Shown here one piece after another: positions 5,934 to 40,632 of a stretch of DNA of 42,381 bases (its first letter is position 1; each line of letters starts with the position of its first letter). The notes beneath the pieces are model-generated. The model was not told where the DNA came from. It was given only the letters and a program-made list of their open reading frames with translations, and searched no databases. The stretch spans positions 1 through 42,381 of IMG/VR virus record IMGVR_UViG_3300012917_000003; one strand, written 5' to 3'. A program made the position numbers and the translations under genes. This DNA is from a virus.

Positions 5934-6143
5934 ATGCCTAAAGAATTGGAAAATAAATTTAAGAAACAATATGGTAAAGATAACCCAGTAGTTTTTAAAA
6001 TAATGAATAAGTTAGGCTTCATGAAAGGTCCCAATGAAACAGCTAAAGGTGAAGCCTTGGATAAAAGTAACGCGAAGCGGAGTAATCTAGACTCTAAATC
6101 TAAAGCTCATATGGTTAGCAAGTTTATACGTAAGGGGAATTAA
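5934..6143 (+). CDS. Small basic protein between portal and scaffold
   Basis: This 69-residue Lys-rich protein contains KKQYGKDNPVVFKIMNKLGFM and a polar C-terminus. Short proteins with a YG....IMNKxGxM pattern are often found directly after phage portal genes, but their role is not known to me. It sits 4 bases after portal and 1 base before the scaffold gene, whose AAGGGGA site lies in its last codons, so translation is probably coupled. Confidence 0.7.
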   Translation: MPKELENKFKKQYGKDNPVVFKIMNKLGFMKGPNETAKGEALDKSNAKRSNLDSKSKAHMVSKFIRKGN

Positions 6144-6144
6144 A

Positions 6145-7050
6145 ATGGCAGACGAAGTTAAAGTTGAAACTAAATCTGATGCTAAATCTGAAGTTAAGGA
6201 TTTAGCTAAAGACATAACCACTAAGTCTAATTTAGCTAATATTATTGAAAACGCTACAATTAAAGCTTCTAAGGAATCAGAACCCGAAACTAAAGAGCTA
6301 GAAATTAAGGAACCTGAAAAAGAATCTCCTGAAACTAAGGAACCAGATAAAGAAGAAAAACCTGAGGAACTCAGGGAAGACGAAGTAGTTTTTGCAAAGA
6401 ATCTTTATAAAGCTTTAAATAATTCTGATCCTAATGTTCAATTAAAAACTTTAAAACTTTTAGCTAATGCAGCTAATATGGATTTAAAGGAAATTGAAAC
6501 TAAAAAGGATATAAAAGAAGCTGAAAAAGATTTAGTTGCTTTACTTAAAGAAGGTTTAGGTGAATTTGATTTCTTAGCTGAAAAGTTAGGTCCAGTTCTT
6601 GAAAGAGCTTTAAAATCTTATGTAGCTAAAGAAACAGAGCCTATTAAACAAGCCCAGCAATTAATTAAAGATGAAAAGTTACGCGATGAAGTCTCTAGTG
6701 CCATAGATAAAGCGTTCGGTGAATATACTAATGCTACTGAAGTTAAAGATGAGGTTATTCAGCTTATGGATAACTTTAAACCTTCAGCTAAAATGGCGCA
6801 TAAAGATTACTTTAGATCATTAATTATTTTAGCTGCAAGTAATAAAGGTGTAACTCTAAAATTAGCTAATTCTCAAGTTAGCCAAGATAATAATGCAAAA
6901 ATAGACAAAAATAGACGTGACGCGGCCACACGGCTTGCGTCGGAACGTGTTAACGAAGTTAAGGATGTAACTCGTATAACGCAATTTAAAAACTTAAAGG
7001 AAGCCGTCTTAGATGCAGCGGAAAAGGCTTTGACTTTGTCAAAGAGTTAA
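6145..7050 (+). CDS. Scaffolding protein
   Basis: This 301-residue, very charged protein lies directly before the major capsid gene, the usual place of an internal scaffold. Residues 1-85 are a Glu/Lys/Pro-rich disordered stretch with repeated KEPE-like units. Residues about 85-215 are predicted helical (coiled-coil-like heptads around LLKEGLGEFDFLAEKLG), and the C-terminus is basic. No protease motif is seen. A good AAGGGGA site lies 8 bases before the ATG. The role is inferred from composition, helicity and position. Confidence 0.75.
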   Translation: MADEVKVETKSDAKSEVKDLAKDITTKSNLANIIENATIKASKESEPETKELEIKEPEKESPETKEPDKEEKPEELREDEVVFAKNLYKALNNSDPNVQLKTLKLLANAANMDLKEIETKKDIKEAEKDLVALLKEGLGEFDFLAEKLGPVLERALKSYVAKETEPIKQAQQLIKDEKLRDEVSSAIDKAFGEYTNATEVKDEVIQLMDNFKPSAKMAHKDYFRSLIILAASNKGVTLKLANSQVSQDNNAKIDKNRRDAATRLASERVNEVKDVTRITQFKNLKEAVLDAAEKALTLSKS

Positions 7051-7085: not shown

Positions 7086-8225
7086 ATGTCTACAATAACT
7101 TTTGGAAATACCTCAGCGCCTTCCAATATATCGGCATATATGGATAGCGTTTTTGGAATTTCAATTGCCAATTATCGTAAAGAACTTACAGATAATATTG
7201 GTGCTACAAATGCGTTTTTAGCTGAATTATTGCGTAGTGACTCTTATGAATCTGCCGATGGAGGCGCTTGGATTCAAGAGCCATTAATGTATGCGCTTGC
7301 ACCAAGTGATTCGTATGATGGATATGACGAATTAAGCACATTACCTACTGATGGAATTAGCGATGCTATTTATGAATGGCGTCAAACGGCTTCACCTATT
7401 GTTTATTCAATGCGGGAAGTGATTCTAAATCAACGTCGTATAGTTGATATAGTAGCTTCGCGTATTAAACAATCTGAACTTGGTATTCAAGAAGGTTTTG
7501 CTCAAGCTTTAATGTGGGGCGCTCAAAGTAATGGTGGCGCGAGTCTGGTGACTCCAAGAATAAGTTCAGTTAATAGTTCCAAGAATATTGAGCCCTTGAA
7601 TGAATTTATTCGATTTGATCCTACTTCAGCTACTAATCCCACAGTAGGAAGTATAGATCAAAGTTTAGCTGCTAATAATTGGTGGCGAAATCGAACCAAA
7701 ACTAGCGCCGCAGCTGATTATGTAACATATATTATGGAACTTGAAAATATGTATAATCAATGTGCGGCTGGCTCAGGTGGTCCGCCTAATTTGATTTTAA
7801 TGGATCAAGTTTCATATGAACTATTCATCATGGCGTTCTTCTTTAGGTATAGAATTATGCCTGGTGATGTTCCTACGAATTTTCCATTTGAAGCTAAGAA
7901 ATTTAAAAATGCAACAGTAGTTATGGATGATAAAGTTCCTGACGCTTATTCAGACTTAGCTCCAACTTCACAAAACGTTGGAGGTTTAAGTTCAGGATTA
8001 ACTTATGGAACTGCGTATTTCATAAATACAAAGTTCTTCAAGTTACGCTATCATCCTGATCGCGACTGGGAAATGTTAACTGACGAAAATGGGAAACGCT
8101 TCCAAAAGCCAATTAACGGCGATAGTCGCGTAGGACATATAGCTTGGATGGGGCAACTAACCTGCAACAACCGTAGAAAGCACGGATTATTGGCTAAAAT
8201 CGCACGTACGATGACAGCTAATTAA
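7086..8225 (+). CDS. Major capsid protein
   Basis: This 379-residue protein follows the scaffold gene and has a plausible size for an HK97-fold capsid subunit. Features include an N-terminal segment with LLRSDSYESADGG, a central part with many Asn/Gly/Ser turns, and a C-terminal strand region (HPDRDWEMLTDENGKR). A good GGAG site precedes the ATG. Codon usage here is less A/T-biased than in the early genes, as expected for a highly expressed protein. The call rests on gene order and size, since HK97 capsids share little sequence. Confidence 0.85.
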   Translation: MSTITFGNTSAPSNISAYMDSVFGISIANYRKELTDNIGATNAFLAELLRSDSYESADGGAWIQEPLMYALAPSDSYDGYDELSTLPTDGISDAIYEWRQTASPIVYSMREVILNQRRIVDIVASRIKQSELGIQEGFAQALMWGAQSNGGASLVTPRISSVNSSKNIEPLNEFIRFDPTSATNPTVGSIDQSLAANNWWRNRTKTSAAADYVTYIMELENMYNQCAAGSGGPPNLILMDQVSYELFIMAFFFRYRIMPGDVPTNFPFEAKKFKNATVVMDDKVPDAYSDLAPTSQNVGGLSSGLTYGTAYFINTKFFKLRYHPDRDWEMLTDENGKRFQKPINGDSRVGHIAWMGQLTCNNRRKHGLLAKIARTMTAN

Positions 8226-8682: not shown

Positions 8683-9219
8683 ATGGCTGGTATAAAAATG
8701 GTCGGAAACAAGAATGATGTCTTTCGTGTAGTTATTAAAAATAATGACACGCAAGTTATCTTCGCTAACGCTCCTGTAGTTCTTGATTTTAGTGGAACTT
8801 CCGAATTAGGTAAGATGGTTAAAACCACTAATTCATTAGCCGCAGCAGAGCAGGGAAATTTCTTTGGAATTAATATTTCAGGAAATTTAAATGTAGGTGC
8901 TGATGGCGAGGCACAAGTATTTGGCTACAATCCAAATGCGCGTGTAGTATTGACAACACGTAGTGCTACTAATGCTACATGGGCCAGTATTGCTGCTGGT
9001 GTAATAGGCGAGTATTTAACATTAGGAACTGGTACAGGTAGCGCCGCTGCCGTAGGTGATCAGGCATTAGTTCGCGTTGCAACTGCGGCTATGTCAGTAG
9101 TTCAATTTGCAAAGTTATGCGAAACATTCGCATCAACAGATACACAAGCTAGTTCATTAGGTCCACAAAGTGTTACGGTGTGGACTACGACTAGAAAGGT
9201 TTTCCTAGCCCGCATGTGA
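8683..9219 (+). CDS. Head protein, possibly decoration or cement protein
   Basis: This 178-residue protein has a strong AAGGAG site 5 bases before the ATG, one of the best in the genome, suggesting high expression. The sequence is beta-rich and Ala/Gly/Thr-rich with no enzyme motif. Its location just after the major capsid gene, interrupted only by an HNH gene, fits a decoration or capsid-stabilising protein. I do not recognise the family; the call is inferred from position and expression signal. It ends with the only late-region TGA stop that I noted. Confidence 0.5.
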   Translation: MAGIKMVGNKNDVFRVVIKNNDTQVIFANAPVVLDFSGTSELGKMVKTTNSLAAAEQGNFFGINISGNLNVGADGEAQVFGYNPNARVVLTTRSATNATWASIAAGVIGEYLTLGTGTGSAAAVGDQALVRVATAAMSVVQFAKLCETFASTDTQASSLGPQSVTVWTTTRKVFLARM

Positions 9220-36953: not shown

Positions 36954-37033
36954 AATTTACATTCTTTATCCATAGTTTTAGCTATTTCAATATAAAAATT
37001 TGGCCCCTCAAGGCGCTTAACTCTTGATTCAAT
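36950..37033 (-). CDS. Possible 27-codon ORF coupled to the 36204 gene
   Basis: An open frame ends with TGA overlapping the next ATG (ATGA). It could start at ATT at 37033 with GGAAAG 6 bases upstream, giving a 27-residue peptide ending MDKECKL. ATT starts are rare, so this is low confidence, but the peptide composition and overlap look gene-like. A leader peptide for coupling is the likeliest role. Confidence 0.3.
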   Translation of the reverse strand: MESRVKRLEGPNFYIEIAKTMDKECKL

Positions 37034-37142
37034 TCTTAGCTTTCCAGTTTTTCAACTGATACGCTACATAGTCAATCAATTACTTAATTGCTATTGCTCT
37101 TTAAGAATTTAGGACCTAAAGTTTTTACAACGTGGTTCGTGG

Positions 37143-37177
37143 TTAAGAATCTTACGATTAGTTTTAATCATTCTTAA
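37143..37177 (-). promoter_or_regulatory. Hairpin in the early leader
   Basis: TTAAGAAT (37143-37150) pairs with ATTCTTAA (37170-37177), and GATTA (37156-37160) with TAATC (37165-37169), giving a 13-bp hairpin with a 5-base bulge. It lies about 190 bases before the 36953 start codon, inside the leader of the early transcript. Confidence 0.5.
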
Positions 37178-37225
37178 ACACTTTCCAAAAATTTTAAGCT
37201 TGTTAGCTATTTTAAACTTTGGCTT

Positions 37226-37270
37226 CTGATTACAAATAGTTAACATTAAATGTTAATTGTGTTTATCAGA
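37226..37270 (-). promoter_or_regulatory. Long hairpin in the early leader
   Basis: CTGAT (37227-37231) pairs with ATCAG (37265-37269), and TTAACATT with AATGTTAA at the tip, with an internal mismatch region. It lies between the promoter-proximal RNA hairpin and the previous hairpin and helps make the early leader highly structured. Confidence 0.45.
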
Positions 37271-37293
37271 ATCATTGTCTTCACGTTGTAATT

Positions 37294-37387
37294 ATGTTAC
37301 TTCTTGCTCTTTTGTGTGCGCTGGGGCGTGAGGCCGCGGCCTGAGATCCGTCGCCAGAGTACAAAAGAGGGTAAAGCGAAGCAACAT
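37294..37387 (-). ncRNA. 94-nt rod-like RNA at the 5' end of the early transcript
   Basis: On the minus strand ATGTTGCTTC pairs with GAAGTAACAT over 10 bp (one G-U, which would be A-C on the plus strand). After an internal loop, CTCTTTTGT pairs with ACAAAAGAG, then CTGG with CCAG, and AGGC with GCCT around CGCG. The first paired base, 37387, is exactly 7 bases after the -10 box, so transcription would begin with the hairpin. It may be a leader that protects the mRNA 5' end, or a separate small RNA such as a 6S-like decoy. No U tract follows, so a leader is more likely. Confidence 0.6.
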
Positions 37388-37393
37388 GCGGGC

Positions 37394-37422
37394 ATTAGAG
37401 CACTGTTTTGAGGGATTGTCAA
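37394..37422 (-). promoter_or_regulatory. Early promoter, sigma70-type
   Basis: On the minus strand the -35 box TTGACA (37422-37417) is followed by 17 bases and the -10 box TCTAAT (37399-37394), 11 of 12 matches to consensus. The predicted start at 37387 coincides with the first base of the RNA hairpin. This should drive the whole early arm. Confidence 0.85.
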
Positions 37423-37465
37423 GCTATTTGATAGCTAGATAACAAAGGACTTAGCTTAATTCTTA

Positions 37466-37527
37466 ACCCGAAGTGCCTGTGTATTGATTAGCGACCACCC
37501 GGTATGCGGGGAGCGAGCGCTTCGGGT
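37466..37527. repeat. Inverted repeat with an 8-bp stem in the control region
   Basis: ACCCGAAG (37466-37473) pairs with CTTCGGGT (37520-37527), with an inner CCCG/CGGG hairpin (37498-37510). The segment is more GC-rich than its surroundings. It may be an RNA structure or a protein-binding site; strand is unclear. Confidence 0.45.
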
Positions 37528-37573
37528 AAGACGCTGAGTCATCAAGTGTTAGTCCAATAGGGCATATAAATCT

Positions 37574-37760
37574 AAAGGACTTATGCGTTATTTAATTATG
37601 GATTTAAAGGACTTATGCATAGGGTGAATTACGGATTTAAAGGACTTAACTTTTTGTGCTTGACTTTGTCCACTATCTTGGAGTAGCGTCTGTCTACGAT
37701 GTTGCGATCCTTTAGAATTGGAATTGTGTGTTGCATAAGTCCTTTAGAATCGTAATTAAA
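37574..37760. repeat. Iteron-like repeats AAAGGACTTATGC, possible origin
   Basis: Copies of AAAGGACTTA occur at 37574-37583, 37606-37615 and 37639-37648 in direct orientation, with an inverted copy GCATAAGTCCTTT at 37733-37745 and a partial one near 37709. A further isolated copy is at 37444-37453. The longer 28-base form (37591-37618) is matched by the inverted copy at 37733-37760 with only a few differences. They sit beside an AT-only stretch and between divergent genes, a typical layout for a replication origin or a regulator-binding array. Confidence 0.6.
37660..37689 (+). promoter_or_regulatory. Possible plus-strand promoter in the repeat region
   Basis: TTGACT (37660-37665), 18 bases, then TAGCGT (37684-37689). 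The -10 box is weak. It could serve the gene at 38123 or a replication primer. Confidence 0.3.
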
Positions 37761-37780
37761 TGTGGTATAAGTGGTTTAGA

Positions 37781-37815
37781 TTTAGTATATAAAAAAAATA
37801 TATATTTTTAAATCA
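37781..37815. other. AT-rich tract beside the repeats, possible unwinding element
   Basis: The stretch from about 37781 is almost only A and T (including AAAAAAAATATATA). Next to the iteron-like repeats this fits a DNA-unwinding element of an origin. Inference from layout only. Confidence 0.4.
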
Positions 37816-37927
37816 ATAACTTAACCCTTACCCTCTTCAGATGCGCGCCCCCTAGCAATAAATAGACTTAGTTTGCGTCAAATATTTGAACGAGTTAGTA
37901 AGTCTTTTGTTTTAAAGATTTTAGGAT

Positions 37928-37986
37928 GGCAGGGAATTTTTACTTGCTACTAAAATGCCTCAAAAATGGGGGTCAGATTTTAGTAG
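37928..37986. promoter_or_regulatory. Two mutually exclusive hairpins upstream of the 38123 gene
   Basis: CTACTAAAAT (37947-37956) pairs perfectly with ATTTTAGTAG (37977-37986), 10 bp. An upstream GGCA...ATTTT segment (37928-37940) can instead pair with AAAAT...GCC (37952-37959). The two folds compete. They may act as a switch or simply as binding sites; a second small hairpin lies at 38043-38060. Confidence 0.35.
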
Positions 37987-38122
37987 TTTGTAATAATGCT
38001 AAAACGTTTGTTTTCAATGAATTTGTGGTGTTCCACTTGCCTATGCTAGAAAAATAGCATGTTTGAACTTTATTTGGCTAAATTAATAGTTAAATAAAGT
38101 AATTTAAATGAGTTAAAAAGTT

Positions 38123-38518: not shown

Positions 38519-38998
38519 TTATTCTTCCGTTGCGTTTGCTTTTGCTGATGCCGCTCGAATTGCGTTCATTATGAATGGAATATTTTTAACTTGTTCCAAG
38601 ATTGCACTGGTTTGTTTATTCCATTCTTCAGCTGAAGCTTTTCTTTTATCTGAAACGGTAATCATTGCGTCGAAGGGCGCGATTTCGCGGTAAGATTTAA
38701 TGTATTCCATTAAAACCGCGCGATTAATTCCGCCTGAAACGCCTGCACTCGCTTTTGCAGATTTTAAAGCTTCGTTCCTGATTAGGAAATTCGCTGCATC
38801 AACCCAACGGTTAATTTCATTTAATTTTGCCATTACTTTTTGAGGGTGTGCGTCACTTGTGAAAGTTTCGTACTCTACTGGAACTTCTTTTTGCTGAAGA
38901 ACTAGGTTTTCATCGAAAAACTCATAAGACTTTTTGATGCTAACTTTTTCTGTTTCGGTCTTAACTTCGGCTTCTTTTTCAGGCTGTTGTGTTGACAT
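38519..38998 (-). CDS. Hypothetical protein with its own promoter
   Basis: I place the start at the ATG at 38998, with AAGGGG 10 bases upstream. The in-frame ATG at 39031 would lie at the predicted transcription start and have no ribosome-binding site. The 159-residue protein (STQQPEKEAEVKTE...) has an acidic N-terminus, a middle helix around INRWVDAANFLIRNEAL, and an Ala-rich helical end. It has its own promoter and terminator-flanked unit, suggesting high or separately timed expression. Family unknown. Confidence 0.68.
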   Translation of the reverse strand: MSTQQPEKEAEVKTETEKVSIKKSYEFFDENLVLQQKEVPVEYETFTSDAHPQKVMAKLNEINRWVDAANFLIRNEALKSAKASAGVSGGINRAVLMEYIKSYREIAPFDAMITVSDKRKASAEEWNKQTSAILEQVKNIPFIMNAIRAASAKANATEE

Positions 38999-39038
38999 TT
39001 TACTTTTACCCCTTTTTGAATTTGAAATCATGAAAAAC

Positions 39039-39092: not shown

Positions 39093-39122
39093 TTTAGCGC
39101 CCGGACTGTGAGGGACGCTAAA
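39093..39122 (-). terminator. Possible terminator after the small-gene unit
   Basis: TTTAGCG and CGCTAAA pair over 7 bp around a 16-base loop, followed on the minus strand by TTTT. It would end the transcript of the genes at 39521, 39346 and 39230 just before the promoter of the next unit. Confidence 0.5.
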
Positions 39123-39362: not shown

Positions 39363-39521
39363 TTAATTTTCAAAAGTTTGGAACCAAAATCTAGGTAGCT
39401 GGAAACGAAAAGTTTCATGCATTTCTGCATAATATGCTAAATCCATAGCTTCGTATACTGCATACTCGTTATTTCTATCCAATGGTTCTACTACAGACAA
39501 TTCACGATTAAATTCAGCCAC
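39363..39521 (-). CDS. Small protein with GTG start, first gene of the minus unit
   Basis: A 52-residue ORF starts at GTG, with AAAGGAG 9 bases upstream, a strong site. The sequence MAEFNRELSVVEPLDRNNEY and the Tyr/Phe-rich end (YYAEMHETFRFQ, FWFQTF) show codon use like the other genes. It is the first gene after the tRNA-like element in the same direction, with only 34 bases between. Confidence 0.65.
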   Translation of the reverse strand: MAEFNRELSVVEPLDRNNEYAVYEAMDLAYYAEMHETFRFQLPRFWFQTFEN

Positions 39522-39555: not shown

Positions 39556-39618
39556 AGGCTAACCTAAGACTCGAACTTAGGATAAACTTGCTAGATTTAC
39601 ATAAACCATATTTAGCCT
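39556..39618 (-). tRNA. tRNA-like element lacking a D arm
   Basis: On the minus strand AGGCTAA (39618-39612) pairs with TTAGCCT (39562-39556), a perfect 7-bp acceptor stem. Directly inside is a T arm: CCTAAG and CTTAGG around TTCGAGT, the classic T-loop. The 30 nt between cannot hold both a D arm and an anticodon arm. One 17-nt arm fits (TAAAT, loop CTAGCAA, GTTTA, with a U33-like T), suggesting anticodon AGC, but this is weak. The 13-bp coaxial stack is one longer than the usual 12, as in selenocysteine tRNA. No CCA is encoded. It may be a decayed tRNA or a tRNA mimic. Confidence 0.5.
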
Positions 39619-39639
39619 ACTCAAAAAGAGTAAAAACTT

Positions 39640-40470
39640 CGCCCACTACGTTGTAGAAATAGATAATTAACTTAATTACTTTATTAACCGTAAACGATGT
39701 ATAAAGTAACTAAGTTAATTATCTAATCGTGAAACGTAGTGAACTTGGTAGGACCAGCATCATGATAGCGCCGTCAAGCGTCATCTTATATGCTGGCGAG
39801 TGCCGGGGCCTAGCGGGCTACTCTGCCGGCCGCTACCGATACCCAGTGTGGATACGTCGCTAGGTACTCCGTGATGCTTTGACGGGCATCGTGAGCGTGT
39901 TACGCGCTGATCTAGCAATGCGACCGGACACTAAGTCCGGACCCTACCTTCGACTCGCCGCTAACCTCACATCATACCAGCCTGCCGGAGTTCATACCAA
40001 GTGCCGGGTATCGGTCGGATTAATGCTACAGCGCGATAACTAACATCGGCTGATTATTGCTAGGCTTTCCCGTTGCCTATTAACTCGTTTTACCCGGCAC
40101 GTCTCGTACGCATTACTACGGTATCTAAATCACTGTTGCTATGTGAGGCGTGCTCGCCGTGGCTTCGATTATGAGTCTATACGGGTTTACGTCAAGACCC
40201 TGATCTAATCATGTTCCGCAGTTGATATAGCAGGTAGGTGGCCATTACCAGATTACTTTGTTATCTTATAGTTACATCTGCGTCATAATCATGACTCGTA
40301 AACTATCTTTACATAAGTCTGCATCTTGTTGATAGTTCGTGTCAACTATCCTTACAAACCATTATAGCTTGCGTAAAGTAATATGACATACTTTATATAG
40401 TATGTCATATTAATGACAATAGATCATACTATAATCTATTCTATGATCTATTCACCGGCGTTAGCCGGTG
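39640..40470 (+). ncRNA. Large structured non-coding RNA candidate (about 830 nt)
   Basis: This gene-free stretch is clearly richer in G+C than the genome and has no ORF. Helices include ACTTGGTA/TACCAAGT (39743-39750, 39995-40002), CCAGCAT/ATGCTGG (39754, 39790), a 10-bp helix (39835-39844 with 40006-40015), AGCGTG/CGCGCT, CCGGAC/GTCCGG (39924-39940), CAGC-CGAT/ATCG-GCTG (40029-40052), TAGGC/GCCTA (40061-40079), 40096-40108/40142-40154 (13 bp, four G-U), GGGTTT/AGACCC (40183-40200), GATAGTT/AACTATC (40331-40350), AATATGACATACT (13 bp, 40380-40411), 40418-40452 and CACCGGC/GCCGGTG (40453-40470). G-U pairs and a UACG tetraloop favour the plus strand. Size and phage context resemble GOLLD and ROOL RNAs, but the class is unassigned. 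Some helices compete; borders are approximate. Confidence 0.75.
39644..39741. repeat. Long imperfect inverted repeat at the left edge of the RNA
   Basis: AGATAATTAACTTAATTACT (39661-39680, plus TTAT) pairs with 39701-39724 over 24 bp with one A-C mismatch (39675 and 39710) around a 16-base loop. Outer arms CACTACGTT (39644-39652) and AACGTAGTG (39733-39741) extend it. The mismatch would be a G-U pair on the minus strand, which points opposite to most of the RNA, so it may be a separate DNA-level or minus-strand signal. Confidence 0.6.
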
Positions 40471-40632
40471 GGTTCCCCCAAATCAAGCCGGGTTTAGATA
40501 GAGATTTCAAACCTAAAAAGCAAGTATAAATATTAAATACTTTATATAAATAAATCTAAATTCAACTTAGCATTTTTATTACCAACTTCAAAAATTCACT
40601 TAAGCCTCTTAAAATCATTAACTTAAAAACGC
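40471..40632. other. AT-rich gap between the RNA and the late promoter
   Basis: This stretch is A/T-rich, with no ORF and no strong hairpin. A minus-strand TATACT near 40513-40518 has no good -35 box. I see nothing else in it. Confidence 0.4.

Follow-up and report, generated by a model that had tools for sequence, protein, structure and literature searches.

The gene-free stretch and its setting

The window analysed here, which is the whole 42,381-nt stretch of DNA, is a complete phage genome with 106 bases identical at both termini (a 106-bp terminal repeat). It encodes terminase, portal, major head protein, DNA polymerase, helicase, primase, exonuclease and annealing protein, with structural genes read from the plus strand and those for replication from the minus strand. 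The region 39640-40480 sits where the minus block and the plus genes of the right end diverge. The original prediction had described about 830 nt without a gene here, and we agree: the largest ORF in 39640-40470 is 54 aa and we find no plausible gene. The raised G+C content that it also described holds for the middle, at 0.44-0.60 in segments spanning 39700-40300 versus 0.333 genome-wide, but not for the outer parts (39640-39740 and 40300-40470). What we propose as the core of an RNA (39745-40378, minus strand) is gene-free, GC-rich and purine-rich, with A>T and G>C on the minus strand.

The first gene to follow on that strand is a 52-aa ORF (39363-39521), which begins with GTG and has AAGGAG ahead of it. 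Past this ORF is a minus-strand hairpin, TTTAGCG...CGCTAAA (39093-39122), in a stretch with a folding z of -5.2; it may be a terminator of the leftward transcript, although the terminator scan did not call it. A conserved protein of 150-170 aa without a Pfam match is encoded both in the window (38519-39031; this copy also lacks a PHROGs match) and in the relative L007 described below (7588-8040), and both genes have a TTGACA-17-TAAGCT promoter-like box ahead of them on their strand. At 37567-37784 we noticed TAAAGGACTTA repeats in a long inverted layout (53-nt arms, 81% complementary), with three direct copies 32-33 nt apart; the array resembles iterons or operators, and is possibly an origin. 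The genome's second large gene-free region, 36957-38122, contains a long imperfect GC-rich hairpin on the plus strand (37290-37395, z about -2).

Folding of the whole region 39640-40470 is far below shuffles (z -7.3 for the plus strand, -11.2 for the minus strand), but this strong value comes mainly from the flanking hairpins at 39644-39741, 40379-40412 and 40418-40452; for the GC-rich core by itself, z is -2.3 (minus) and -1.5 (plus). The strongest element of the region, absent from the original prediction, is the hairpin at 39644-39741; it has 48-nt arms closed by CACTACGTT/AACGTAGTG, and their pairing is better on the minus strand than on the plus strand. The right-end hairpins that had been predicted are there: a near-perfect palindrome, TGACATACT/AGTATGTCA (40379-40412, minus strand; 17-nt arms, 94%), and an AT-rich hairpin (40418-40452, minus strand; 16-nt arms, 88% complementary), adjoined by a third, CACCGGC-TAAC-GCCGGTG (40453-40470, minus strand), near the proposed 5' end. 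The predicted 10-bp helix (39835-39844 with 40006-40015) is also present, but it is overlapped by a rival perfect 10-bp helix (40001-40010 with 40091-40100), and only one of the two can form because both use bases 40006-40010. Such a pair had been thought unlikely by chance; with two seen against 0.15 expected, and 1 of 60 shuffles equal, the excess is modest. The 13-pair helix with four G-U pairs (40096-40108 with 40142-40154) can be drawn as described, on the plus strand only, but it is at chance level (0.60 expected; 45% of shuffles). An "ornate" fold of the core is not shown, the core folding only modestly better than shuffled sequence and a joint fold-and-align with the relative (below) not rising above shuffles.

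Ordered signals shared with a distant relative

Among the scanned IMG/VR sequences and 84,980 species genomes, the only other carrier of the unit is L007, the IMG/VR contig IMGVR_UViG_3300046812_000114 (the same contig as L019, L020, L023, L055 and L083). The helicases of the window and L007 are 61% identical, a 170-aa gene that is the next conserved one on the 3' side of the RNA is 50% identical, and a 249-aa gene is 33% identical. L007, whose genome is likewise AT-rich, has a gene-free, equally GC-rich stretch upstream of the conserved genes, in the same orientation as in the window and purine-rich (A>T, G>C) in the direction that matches the window core. No close homologs were found beyond these two, and BLAST of the region and its neighbouring proteins against named phages gave no close phage. 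Two further candidates were inspected, L008, which has GGGGGAATCCCACC but no comparable unit, and L009, which has none, and an 896-nt gap in G002 was judged by eye to be a gene missed by the ORF picker.

The order on the minus strand is the same in both genomes: TGCTTTTTAGGTTTGAAAT, GGGGGAAC, AAGGTAGG, GTAACACGC, CCTACCAA, terminal helix, tRNA-like element, all running in one orientation. The 5' element is a 19-mer, TGCTTTTTAGGTTTGAAAT (40504-40522, minus strand), identical in L007 at 6096-6114, present in one copy per genome and the sole noncoding identity of at least 14 nt at a syntenic position. Exactly 43 nt after it (start to start) in both genomes comes GGGGGAAC (40472-40479, minus strand in the window). 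Further along the minus strand are AAGGTAGG (39943-39950; L007 6683-6690) and the hairpin region of GTAACACGC (39895-39903; L007 6728-6736), spaced 47 and 45 nt apart in the two genomes, and then CCTACCAA (39745-39752; L007 6945-6952). The GGTAGG of AAGGTAGG is complementary to CCTACC at 39747-39752, and a comparable pair arose in 11 of 300 shuffles; a possible long-range GGUAGG/CCUACC helix joining the two shared 8-mers is thus suggestive only. We recorded 43 matches to the core of the 19-mer and 16 to the CCTACCAA pattern; the others among these were mostly inside long open frames, and none came with the remaining signals. We found no convincing -10/-35 promoter ahead of the 19-mer in both genomes. 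We also weighed whether the 19-mer might be a Bacteroidota-type promoter box (TAnnTTTG), but dropped the idea since the genes carry Shine-Dalgarno sites and TTGACA-type boxes. The RNA-like stretch of L007 also holds three TGACA-N5-TGTCA dyads (6356-6489), two of them 22 bp apart, which are either repeated RNA hairpins or operators.

At the 3' end, the closing helix of the terminal hairpin has an L007 counterpart, CATAACGCT/AGCGTTAT, at the same offset, and between the two genomes three of its eight pairs are changed on both sides (double compensatory changes). A comparable helix at the terminal offset appeared by chance in 46 of 5000 shuffles for L007 and in 103 of 5000 for the window. Beyond it lies the tRNA-like element that had been predicted nearby, which we place on the minus strand at 39556-39619 (L007 7031-7097): an acceptor helix, AGGCTAA/TTAGCCT, with a T-arm whose 7-nt loop is TTCGAGT, and no anticodon arm. 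An unbiased search for acceptor-like helices stacked on a T-arm, run over the whole of each genome, gave two matches per genome, one of which falls at the syntenic place beside the RNA stretch, and the shuffles had mostly none. The window and L007 each contain a single copy of the motif TAGCAAG.TT..CC with TTC after it, and the other relatives that were examined lack it.

The element resembles a tRNA, or a T-arm/acceptor minihelix, in its acceptor-like helix on a T-arm and in the 7-nt loop starting with TTC; it differs from a tRNA in having no anticodon arm and no CCA, and ARAGORN calls no tRNA there, a canonical cloverleaf with anticodon arm being absent. The L007 acceptor is longer and offset, its partner sitting across a shared GAGTA from the window's position, and the L007 T-loop is less canonical. 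Because this partner lies beyond the GAGTA, the two folds are not strictly superposable, and because it is not strictly the same segment in both genomes, we use the label "tRNA-like" and nothing more. Elsewhere in L007, ahead of the helicase operon, there are two copies (8826-8880 and 8998-9063; 76% alike over 37 nt) of a further tRNA-like unit, built as ACCTTATTA, a T-arm with TCGAA, and TAATAAGGT.

Between its conserved ends the body is barely alike in the two genomes: local alignment scores 599, versus 475 for the reverse complement, and 100 mononucleotide shuffles reached at most 502. A home-made, uncalibrated joint fold-and-align of these two sequences, the only ones compared, gave 16613 for the whole RNA, versus a dinucleotide-shuffle mean of 15638 (sd 1046), and for the 3' domain 53 of 100 shuffles were as good; a common fold of the middle, tested in this way between the two loci, was not shown.

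Known RNA families and competing explanations

The original prediction had proposed a member or relative of the GOLLD and ROOL group, or a new class. Membership in GOLLD or ROOL is not supported. Rfam 15 found no family in the window or L007 at gathering score or at E<=5 with lax filters, including OLE and the group I/II introns; sub-threshold matches were chance microRNA-type hairpins and short small-RNA matches far below cut-off. Searched directly, the GOLLD model (RF02032, cut-off 150 bits) gave only 4.8 bits (E 2.1), elsewhere, and the ROOL model (RF03087, cut-off 99.1 bits) gave no match. As a positive control, for ROOL only, the ROOL of L. salivarius pMP118, with its location taken from PMC5643018, was recovered at 130.4 bits in the same Rfam search. 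GOLLD itself is about 800 nt, occurs in phages and prophages, often near tRNAs, and has a conserved 3' part and a less conserved 5' part (PMC12286853). A diverged GOLLD or ROOL missed by the Rfam models would fit the length, phage location, tRNA-like neighbour and conserved 3'/variable 5' pattern described for GOLLD in that study, but the lack of even a permissive match in either homolog, where a true ROOL is easily found, makes this extremely doubtful.

The control also informs how folding scores should be read. The true ROOL gives a z of only -1.3 overall and about -0.5 in 160-nt windows, so a weak z is not evidence against a giant RNA, and we rejected a low z-score as an argument against structure; equally, a strong z that arises from side hairpins does not argue for one. 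In the control, A exceeds T and G exceeds C along the RNA strand, and it folds better in sense than in antisense, whereas neither the window core nor the L007 core clearly does. A second, divergent ROOL for calibrating the joint fold-and-align was sought and not found. The control ROOL in L. salivarius (L094 1514-1786) adjoins a same-strand helix-turn-helix regulator gene, as does the L007 RNA.

Instead of a free-standing RNA, the stretch could be the 5' leader of the leftward operon, long and structured and acting in attenuation, antitermination or translation control; the tRNA-like element, which closely precedes a Shine-Dalgarno site and a small ORF, would then regulate that mRNA. Both genomes do have a Shine-Dalgarno site and a small same-strand ORF within about 40 nt of the tRNA-like element, and the L007 RNA comes after an HTH gene of the same direction. 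Against this, the small ORFs downstream show no evident relationship, the conserved 170-aa gene lies further on, a leader of some 840 nt would be very long, and the GC enrichment is far upstream of the ORF; we regard a leader as unlikely, while taking it seriously. The divergence of the minus and plus gene blocks at this position invites another explanation, a DNA control region needing no functional RNA, either a set of operators for an early/late switch or an origin of replication, with the palindromes and the 19-mer as putative protein-binding sites. The palindromes are near-perfect, L007 has its three dyads and an adjacent HTH protein, and a 19-mer kept letter for letter resembles a DNA site. 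Such a region leaves unexplained the GC-rich, purine-biased cores, the compensatory changes in the terminal helix and the tRNA-like element, and we hold it to be rather improbable, though it and the operon leader are the two chief rivals of a free-standing RNA.

The near-unrecognisable core, with structural similarity not above shuffles, would also be expected of an unconstrained, fast-changing intergenic stretch that has a few conserved borders and no function of its own. Neutral drift should however have led to an AT-rich composition, and both cores are GC-rich with a purine bias in the same direction, so this explanation seems very improbable.

A proposed leftward phage RNA and its likeness to known RNAs

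We conclude that the stretch is probably a long noncoding RNA gene on the minus strand, because a distant relative keeps its start, its end and its tRNA-like tail in the same place. The evidence covers two phages, in which a gene-free, GC- and purine-rich stretch with ordered and oriented conserved ends occupies the same locus. Position, orientation and ends are conserved without coding potential, as would be expected of a structured long noncoding RNA of the general kind. The candidate is real and conserved, and outside known families. Of the structured long RNA originally predicted, a long noncoding RNA is the part best supported, now on the minus strand and resting on the comparison with the relative.

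Transcription would run leftward from around 40520 to around 39640, about 0.84-0.88 kb, and the RNA would come first in the transcription unit of the replication side. The conserved 19-mer and GGGGGAAC would mark its 5' end, and its more conserved 3' part would end in CCTACCAA, the terminal hairpin and the tRNA-like T-arm/acceptor element. The RNA is presumably made during infection, and the tRNA-like element and terminal hairpin may set or protect its 3' end, most likely through cleavage by RNase P or RNase Z, with which the host processes its tRNAs. Once released it might act as a structured RNA, serving as a scaffold or forming an assembly broadly as GOLLD and ROOL do. That the candidate is transcribed, processed at the tRNA-like element, folded and used as a scaffold is what we infer from its sequence. 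Taken as a whole, the explanation we lean towards, with slightly better than even confidence, is a long noncoding phage RNA that is transcribed leftward and has conserved ends, a tRNA-like 3' boundary and a structured-RNA role. A more tentative proposal, which we think possible and somewhat doubtful, is that it represents a giant phage RNA class that is new and has no relation to GOLLD or ROOL, in which a built-in tRNA-like element sets the 3' end of an RNA with a variable 5' and a conserved 3' part.

Phages often carry abundant RNAs of about 0.5-0.9 kb that have no known job, and two classes of such phage RNAs build RNA-only cages. If our reading is true, another candidate, unrelated to those two classes and ending in a tRNA-like element, would help to show which of several features (phage location, tRNA neighbourhood, variable 5' part) go with function, and through it one could study how RNAs of this sort are freed from the transcript.

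Unclassified phage RNAs have precedents in the ICP1 transcript of about 800 nt (PMC7567579) and the phage K lncRNAs (PMC9241854). By description these are similar gene-free phage intervals without a known family; they were seen by RNA-seq, whereas our candidate is predicted from sequence alone. Like GOLLD, the candidate is phage-borne and of similar size (about 840 nt), but it matches no covariance model and its neighbour is an ARAGORN-negative tRNA-like element instead of a tRNA. It is longer than ROOL (about 840 nt versus 543-574) and has no match to the ROOL model, but shares with ROOL the character of a large phage-associated RNA, with GC above that of an AT-rich genome, an excess of A and G, and a weak folding z.
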